Shown here: in pieces, positions 45,781-54,257 of the stretch
How positions within the stretch are numbered: the stretch's first letter is position 1
Layout of the letters: every line of letters begins with the position of its first letter
NCBI GenBank assembly: GCA_023151275.1
Contig: JAKLJI010000002.1
Coordinates: 1-64,000 of the forward strand
Source: Bacteroidia bacterium
Lineage (GTDB): Bacteria > Bacteroidota > Bacteroidia > UKL13-3
DNA: 64,000 nucleotides
Direction of reading: 5' to 3'
The notes under the pieces: model-generated
Seen by the model: only the letters and a program-made list of their open reading frames with translations
What the model was told of the DNA's origin: nothing
Database searches by the model: none
Translations under genes and position numbers: made by a program

Positions 45781-45788
45781 GTCAATTT

Positions 45789-45982
45789 GCGTTAGGGGCA
45801 GGAACGGTACCGCGCCGGTAAGCCTGCCTTTGGCTGTTGGAAAAGGCAAGCGACCCAAGAAGCTCTGCCTTTTGCTTACAGCCTGGCAAGGCTTACCGGG
45901 GTAGTACAAGTGGATGACCCGGCCACGCGGCCACACGAAATGAACAATTGCTGAGTAACTTGCTAGCCGCGGGGCAACGCCC
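45789..45982. repeat. GC-rich structured intergenic element, possibly a dispersed repeat
   Basis: This 194-base block is clearly more GC-rich than its surroundings, begins with GCGTTAGGGG and ends with GGGGCAACGCCC. Inside, CCGGTAAGCC (45815-45824) is complementary to GGCTTACCGG (45890-45899), giving a perfect 10-bp stem around a 65-base interior that has further short complementarities. The start and end phrases remind me of dispersed intergenic repeats in Bacteroidota, but this is from memory and only one copy lies in the window. Confidence 0.45.
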
Positions 45983-53712: not shown

Positions 53713-53800
53713 GGAGAGATGGCAGAGTGGTCGAATGCGGCGGTCTTGAAAACCGTTGTCTGTAACAGGACCGGGGGTTCGAATCCCTCTCTCTCCGCCA
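53713..53800 (+). tRNA. tRNA-Ser (anticodon TGA)
   Basis: An 88-base class II tRNA. The acceptor stem GGAGAGA (53713-53719) pairs with TCTCTCC (53790-53796), followed by discriminator G and encoded CCA. The anticodon loop CTTGAAA reads TGA at 53747-53749. The long variable arm and the GGTTCGAATCC T-arm are clear. It reads UCA and probably UCG by wobble. A multi-hairpin island begins at the very next base. Confidence 0.96.
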
Positions 53801-53937
53801 GGTTTGAAGTCCGATTTTGCAAAGCAAAATCGGACTTTTCCATTATTAGCTAACACCAAGCCGAAGCGAAGGTTTGAGTGTTGGCTAATAATGAAAAAGT
53901 CCAAGCCTGGTGCGAAGCGTAAGGCGGACTTCAAACC
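53801..53937. repeat. multi-branched palindrome abutting tRNA-Ser
   Basis: Outer arms GGTTTGAAGTCC (53801-53812) and GGACTTCAAACC (53926-53937) are exact 12-bp complements. Inside, GTCCGATTTTGC (53809-53820) pairs with GCAAAATCGGAC (53824-53835) around AAA. A long imperfect stem of about 31 bp then runs from 53832-53862 to 53871-53902 with loop GAAGCGAA, and a weaker GCCTGGTGC/GCGTAAGGC hairpin lies at 53906-53925. The arms share bases, so at least two alternative folds compete. It carries no gene. Confidence 0.85.
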
Positions 53938-54008
53938 TGAAGCACTCCACCCTGGGATCATGGTGAAACCATAATCCAATCAATTTGAATAAACACCAAG
54001 CTGAAGCG
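53938..54008. repeat. 71-bp direct repeat, copy 1
   Basis: Nearly identical (67 of 71 bases) to 54089-54159. It contains the hairpin GGATCATGGT-GAA-ACCATAATCC with one mismatch, and ends in the ACACCAAGC-GAAGCG phrase shared with the other palindromes of the island. Confidence 0.9.
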
Positions 54009-54088
54009 CAACGAAGCTTAAAAGGGTGATAGCGCAAAAAAGGCCGTTGGCTGGAGCGAAGCGGAAGACAACAGCCTTTTGTTTGGTT

Positions 54089-54159
54089 TGAAGCCCTCCA
54101 CCCTGGGATCATGGTGAAACCATAATCCATTCAATTTGAATCAACACCAAGCCGAAGCG
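54089..54159. repeat. 71-bp direct repeat, copy 2
   Basis: Second copy of the repeat at 53938-54008, 151 bases apart. Its hairpin arms are 54106-54115 and 54119-54128. Its right end runs straight into a second AACACCAAGCC...GGTTTGAGTGTT stem (54143-54153 with 54167-54178) and a perfect 9-bp hairpin GCCTTGTGC-GAA-GCACAAGGC at 54201-54221. The larger palindrome is closed by GGTTTGAAG (54085-54093) and CTTCAAACC (54225-54233). Confidence 0.9.
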
Positions 54160-54257
54160 AAGCGAAGGTTTGAGTGTTGGCTATAAATGAAAAAGTCTGC
54201 GCCTTGTGCGAAGCACAAGGCTGACTTCAAACCTACTAATTAAGGATTTGTAAAAAT

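Follow-up and report, generated by a model that had tools for sequence, protein, structure and literature searches.

A probable family of cloverleaf-forming, non-coding mobile elements at the T-arm of tRNA-Ser, tRNA-Pro and tmRNA genes in Bacteroidota

The palindrome located directly behind a tRNA-Ser(TGA) gene in the window (the whole analysed stretch of 64,000 nucleotides) very probably belongs to a family of non-coding mobile insertion elements, about 150–180 bp in size, that has spread through Bacteroidota. Most likely the family is new, and its members fold into cloverleaves and insert specifically at the T-arm of tRNA-Ser, tRNA-Pro and tmRNA genes. Both the mobility of the element and the origin of its 17-bp duplication in the target are well supported. 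A search of open-access papers turned up no account of such an element.

ARAGORN places the end of the tRNA at 53800, and the first base past its CCA is 53801, which is where the first-pass annotation had the palindrome begin. The predicted RNA fold of 53801–53937 has an energy of -77.3 kcal/mol, whereas shuffled sequences average -30.3 (sd 3.8, z -12.3, 0/200). It takes the shape of a four-way cloverleaf in which the outer arms enclose hairpin 1, then the central stem, then hairpin 2. This agrees with the exact 12-bp outer arms enclosing hairpins and an imperfect stem that had been described, and the exact arm match extends to 15 nt in full (53799–53813/53925–53939). Three GGACT sites had also been reported as partners for AGTCC; the plus strand contains two GGACT and two AGTCC. 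The alternative folds that were proposed on this basis are weak, the ensemble strongly favouring one fold with the MFE structure equal to the centroid. As had been noted, the region is gene-less, with no ORF of ≥100 aa within 53801–53937. In Rfam 15 only the tRNA reaches its gathering score, and the remaining matches are far below theirs. Among 140-nt windows of the 64 kb, this region gives two of the top three folds. The strongest fold of the window, at 45781–45920, is an intergenic palindrome (GCCGGTAAGCC..GGCTTACCGG) with a sequence unrelated to the tRNA element.

The full feature exceeds 53801–53937. Element 1 occupies 53799–53972 and is followed by two partial units up to 54234, making an array of three units:

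53713–53800, plus strand: tRNA-Ser(TGA), the host RNA gene (ARAGORN; Rfam RF00005, 60.7 bits).
53782–53798, plus strand: 17-bp target block AATCCCTCTCTCTCCGC, tRNA positions 58–74, from sequence; duplicated exactly at at least 12 other loci, in relatives' intact insertions.
53799–53972, plus strand: element 1, 174 nt, CA...T, comprising the cloverleaf and the left arm of the right-end hairpin (sequence and fold; ends placed by analogy with intact copies).
53801–53812, plus strand: left outer arm of the cloverleaf, pairing with 53926–53937 (fold and sequence).
53813–53831, plus strand: hairpin 1, at the position of relatives' terminator hairpin, here with only a weak T-run (fold).
53832–53902, plus strand: central stem, long and imperfect (fold and sequence).
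53905–53925, plus strand: hairpin 2 with a GAA triloop (fold); GNA triloops predominate here in relatives.
53926–53937, plus strand: right outer arm (fold and sequence).
53938–53978, plus strand: right-end motif M1, TGAAGC..GGGATCA-hairpin-TAATCC (covariance model R1, 36.7 bits, E 2.4e-6).
53973–53989, plus strand: 17-nt block AATCCAATCAATTTGAA after element 1, its likeness to the tRNA 3' end gone; at least 15/17 identical to the block after element 2.
53990–54123, plus strand: element 2, 134 nt, lacking the left half and including M2 (sequence repeats).
54089–54129, plus strand: right-end motif M2 (covariance model R1, 40.5 bits, E 2.3e-7).
54124–54140, plus strand: 17-nt block AATCCATTCAATTTGAA after element 2 (sequence).
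54141–54234, plus strand: remnant of element 3, the right half of the cloverleaf without the motif (88% identity to element 1 over 77 nt).

The region 53938–54234 partly repeats the cloverleaf, in direct repeats of 82 nt (91%) and 77 nt (88% identity). The blocks at 53973–53989 and 54124–54140 are alike, and neither still resembles the tRNA end. The window's own copies thus lack the 17-bp duplication, and their origin by insertion is inferred from relatives. They are probably old members of the family whose flanking repeats have decayed.

A second copy was identified in the same genome on contig 75, directly after tRNA-Ser(GGA). Compared with the window copy, its stem sequences are changed on both sides (e.g., GGTTTGAAGTCC vs AGCTTGAAGCCC) and its layout is the same. 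A search of this genome with R1, a covariance model of the right-end motif built on 30 diverse copies, returned three matches above 35 bits (36–40), all located 3' of tRNA-Ser, with the next best at 13 bits. Among the family relatives examined, about a dozen show this layout downstream of tRNA-Ser; in others, a plain terminator follows the gene. The copies in this genome and beside the tRNA genes of relatives refute the earlier alternative that the palindrome is a random local decay product. In two loci from the window's genus (L099 and L100), arrays of AGCTTCCGAAGGAAGC hairpins with a spacing of ~40 nt lie just 3' of the element.

A pattern scan of one genome per species retrieved the motif from at least 119 stretches, with carriers including Pedobacter, Sphingobacterium, Olivibacter, Chitinophagaceae, Saprospiraceae, Cyclobacteriaceae, Bacteroidales, Crocinitomicaceae and others. 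Of the 98 pattern matches in listed loci, 69 lie shortly 3' of tRNA-Ser (TGA 51, GGA 7, GCT 6, CGA 5). None of the 98 lies 3' of any other tRNA, the pattern itself being biased to Ser-type copies, and the leftover matches fall at contig ends, in fragments or, by chance, in other phyla. Weaker covariance-model matches reveal the same element at tRNA-Pro and tmRNA. Carrier genomes contain 1–9 motif matches each, mostly at tRNA ends, and viral contigs yielded no motif copy under three patterns. A strict phylum search detected the element in 8 of 395 genomes with few candidates scored per genome, a figure that reflects either patchy distribution or poor sensitivity and that probably underestimates prevalence.

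Several individual loci deserve mention. A good copy after tRNA-Ser(GGA) was found in a candidate division TM6 MAG (GW2011_GWF2_37_49; L194); it resembles the copy of a Bacteroidales MAG (L117), which points to binning contamination or transfer. In Pedobacter (QKLU01000001, 264001–288000, covered by L200, L132 and L108) and in L255, two tRNA-Ser(TGA) genes 10–12 kb apart each have their own element, suggesting that the tRNA and element were duplicated around a gene block. Element copies without a full upstream tRNA (L138, 5400–5580; L161, 5940–6110; L282, 690–890) adjoin a recurrent coding fragment with the C-terminus ..EHLEGI.., the DNA of which is tRNA-Ser 3'-end-like (GAATCCCCTCTCCCCCGC).

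Members share one order of parts: the tRNA or tmRNA 3' end, the cloverleaf, TGAAGCC, and a conserved hairpin GGGATCA-stem/loop-TAATCCC. Folding was performed on 84 non-redundant segments running from the tRNA end to the motif. A cloverleaf with an outer arm of ≥6 bp formed in 68 of these 84 segments vs 81 of 1680 shuffles (5%), exactly three hairpins were present in 74, and the median z of fold strength was -8.3. The cloverleaf is kept although the segment sequences are unalike. A T-run of ≥4 follows hairpin 1 in 68/74, and GNRA loops occur in this hairpin. GNA triloops cap hairpin 2 in 34/74 and hairpin 1 in 12/74, and they form most of the loops of the right-end hairpin, which also has a conserved C-A mismatch. 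GNA triloops are very stable in DNA, which hints that the folded strand is DNA and is suggestive, though only that, of a folded, single-stranded DNA form. Most tRNA-adjacent copies of the element begin with CA, its last base is T in 61/61, and its median length is 151 nt. Its ends (left CA.., right ..GGGATCA-hp-T) form no terminal inverted repeats, the outer arms being internal on the right side.

The tRNA 3' end is repeated right after the motif at many loci. Where intact, this repeat measures exactly 17 bp (AATCCC and 11 further nt), corresponds to tRNA positions 58–74, and has TTCG| as its border in the tRNA and T| as its border at the element end. An exact duplication is present at at least 12 loci, a tmRNA among them (L281: AATCCCACCAACTCCAC), and further perfect cases were found at tRNA-Ser(CGA), tRNA-Pro(TGG) and tRNA-Pro(CGG). 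Beyond the second repeat lies a sequence like the original terminator, displaced downstream, e.g., AGAGCTTCAATCAAAAGATTGGAGCTTTTTT in Sphingobacterium. A reading of the element as an RNA terminator was given up, as the 17-bp duplications show DNA insertion.

Presence and absence of the element at one locus were observed in Sphingobacterium. At the orthologous tRNA-Ser(TGA) of S. gobiense (L222) and S. haloxyli (L292), the flanks align over 924 bp upstream (90%) and ~1.5 kb downstream (87%), and S. gobiense has 159 bp extra as a clean insertion. In S. haloxyli the two flank alignments share 17 bp, and this species has a different unit of its own after tRNA-Ser(TGA). In S. allocomposti (L191, L196), elements 97% identical to each other are present at tRNA-Ser(GCT), with AATCCCGCTCCTTCCGC as the flanking block, and at tRNA-Ser(GGA), with AATCCCTCTCTCTCCGC. 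The latter element sits behind a unit of a second kind, and its left block is the copy 3' of that unit. Nearly identical elements with tRNA-specific 17-bp blocks indicate that the duplicated block comes from the target and is not carried along. An A-B-A array of two different cloverleaves with 17-bp blocks between them was found in L263.

The second-kind unit of Sphingobacterium is also bounded by 17-bp blocks. It starts with AGAGCTTCAATC..GATTGGAGCTTTTTT and ends with a GGTTYAG..CTRAACC hairpin just before AATCCC. It was found at L292 (1505–1900, reverse strand reading), L222 (1084–1450), L212 (4159–4290) and L196, and up to three tandem copies occur behind one tRNA-Ser. Some intervals between two motif copies bear genes (L259, 500–1290; L114, 1279–3060; L257, 500–4340; L135, 582–1605), with contents comprising a ParE-type toxin pair (PF05016), a HigB/XRE-like pair (identified by eye), ADH/SDR/AraC genes and a single ORF. 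They may represent gene cassettes, or genes that entered the arrays later, and are kept as observations only, since they are few and their boundaries ambiguous. Integron cassettes with genes were considered as a description of the units and rejected: nearly all units are ~150 nt and gene-less, with gene-sized intervals at few loci.

We propose that the element enters the T-loop at a single point, between positions 57 and 58, of tRNA-Ser and less often of tRNA-Pro and tmRNA, duplicating positions 58–74 (17 bp) such that the tRNA retains a correct 3' end. The leading CA of the element often completes the encoded CCA, and hairpin 1 with its T-run usually supplies a new terminator. Together these features would make insertion close to harmless. 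At the right end, GGGAT (AGGAT in most tRNA-Pro copies) is the complement of the target ATCCC/ATCCT, and the right end and the displaced target copy form a T-arm-like hairpin. A target-like site is thereby re-created, which would explain the arrays. A trans-acting enzyme presumably recognises the folded DNA, perhaps in single-stranded form, and performs a 17-bp staggered insertion. Most tRNA-Pro copies with the target ATCCT have an AGGAT right-end arm, and in 102 of 106 copies the element base that faces target base 6 is its complement, most targets sharing one base there. At the seventh target base covariation is only weak (permutation p 0.036). Recognition of folded DNA and guidance by pairing are putative.

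More tentatively, and at somewhat less than even probability, the elements may represent a new class of hairpin-guided insertion, in which a single-stranded DNA cloverleaf is inserted by an undescribed integrase with a 17-bp stagger, the right-end strand pairs with the T-arm strand to pick the site, and CRISPR- or integron-like arrays accumulate on tRNA genes.

A search for the enzyme found no integrase or transposase linked to the element, and no recombinase family recurs among the neighbour genes. Several recurrent upstream genes keep a constant distance to the tRNA, as expected of conserved synteny. Tyrosine recombinases (PF00589) are encoded in all 16 carriers tested and occur near the element only in three ordinary tRNA-Pro islands. 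These islands (L275, L276 and L277) encode tyrosine integrases of ~440 aa and are inserted in tRNA-Pro, with the cloverleaf element directly past the tRNA fragment. Cas1 (PF01867) was detected in 3 of 21 carrier genomes and is absent from 18, and Y1_Tnp (PF01797) was detected in 14 of 21 and is absent from 7; neither is present in S. gobiense or S. haloxyli. A resident Cas1 or Y1 transposase was therefore rejected as the mover for many carriers, the enzyme genes being absent.

Movement by integron-like or tyrosine-integrase recombination is possible, if doubtful, and overlaps with our preferred explanation, being one version of how the element moves. Here, the mobile form would be a small circle with a folded att hairpin and a block of 17 bp of identity, and it would recombine with the tRNA T-arm, as in attC x attI recombination or with T-loop-type integrases. 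The identity block spanning the T-loop to the 3' end, the single block between units of an array, the att-like single-hairpin right end with its C-A mismatch, the occasional toxin-antitoxin genes in the gene-bearing intervals and the tyrosine recombinases of the tested carriers are all consistent with this. However, an integrase never recurs beside the element, and the S. allocomposti elements have different tRNA-specific blocks on both sides, a pattern that fits duplication of the target and does not fit a core carried along by the element. Moreover, the interval from GGGAT to ATCCC is highly variable in length, so that it cannot be a normal core site as double-stranded DNA.

The position of the structure had led the first-pass annotation to assign it to the tRNA-Ser precursor. 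That it is a structured element tied to the tRNA 3' end holds; the role in the precursor is disfavoured, given the T-run and the evidence for DNA insertion. It is very improbable that the family is a vertically inherited, fast-evolving RNA element of the precursor (a trailer, terminator or processing signal), even though it sits just past the CCA, its hairpin 1 carries a T-run and GNRA loops, and its structure is under strong selection. The right half lies beyond the terminator, and with the T-run found after hairpin 1 in most segments the transcript should usually stop before reaching it. The 17-bp duplications with a displaced original terminator, the presence/absence pair, the same family at tRNA-Pro and tmRNA, and the many relatives without the element also argue against such an RNA.

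Spread of the hairpins as REP/RAYT elements or MITEs, by a Y1 (HUH) transposase or an IS, is very improbable. The conserved short tag GAAGCC 5' of a mismatched hairpin recalls the REP design and Y1_Tnp is encoded in two-thirds of the carriers (14/21), but seven lack it, both species of the presence/absence pair among them, and the few copies per genome are at tRNA ends and not dispersed. IS200/IS605 elements are not known to make 17-bp duplications. A casposon- or CRISPR-like insertion by a Cas1-type integrase, with a staggered cut at the tRNA 3' end, a long duplication and repeat-unit-repeat arrays, is likewise very improbable. The duplication geometry of the element resembles that of the A. 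boonei casposase, which targets a tRNA-Pro gene, makes a 14-bp duplication and reads an upstream TCAAATC motif (PMC6614799), but Cas1 was found only in the three carriers noted above and the element lacks terminal inverted repeats.

Under the preferred reading, a mobile element of ~150 bp resides phylum-wide inside essential RNA genes without breaking them, and its structure survives near-total sequence turnover. Such an element implies that Bacteroidota possess a new DNA integration activity, and the search for the enzyme would gain a defined, testable target (T-arm, 17 bp). The element would also account for the variable repeats found 3' of many tRNA-Ser genes and may bear on the origin of repeat-unit arrays such as CRISPR and integrons. 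The enzyme might serve as a site-specific insertion tool.

Among known systems, integron attC arrays share with the element a tandem order of small units separated by single sites, folding of the site with some bases mismatched, similarity of sites within a genome, and toxin-antitoxin genes now and then between units. In contrast to integrons, where a cassette normally carries one gene, most units here lack genes and are built on a tRNA or tmRNA gene; the 17-bp block derives from the target, and no linked integrase was found. The attC core boxes RYYYAAC...GTTRRRY were not seen by eye in the right-end motif alignment, which shows TGAAGCC..GGGATCA..TAATCCC instead. Like tyrosine-integrase elements that target tRNA genes, the element uses the segment from the T-arm to the 3' end of a tRNA or tmRNA and restores the gene, but it encodes no integrase (no ORF in the element), its block is target-derived, and it is a folded non-coding unit. 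REP/RAYT elements and bacterial MITEs (e.g., BrickBuilt of Porphyromonas gingivalis, PMC4596501) are likewise small, non-autonomous, palindromic DNA, whereas the element is not dispersed, lacks transposase-type terminal inverted repeats, and has a fixed 17-bp duplication and a strict target. Casposons also insert at tRNA genes with a long target duplication (here 17 bp, positions 58–74); unlike them, the element is ~150 bp, non-coding and without terminal inverted repeats, it duplicates 17 bp and not 14, and most of its carriers have no Cas1.
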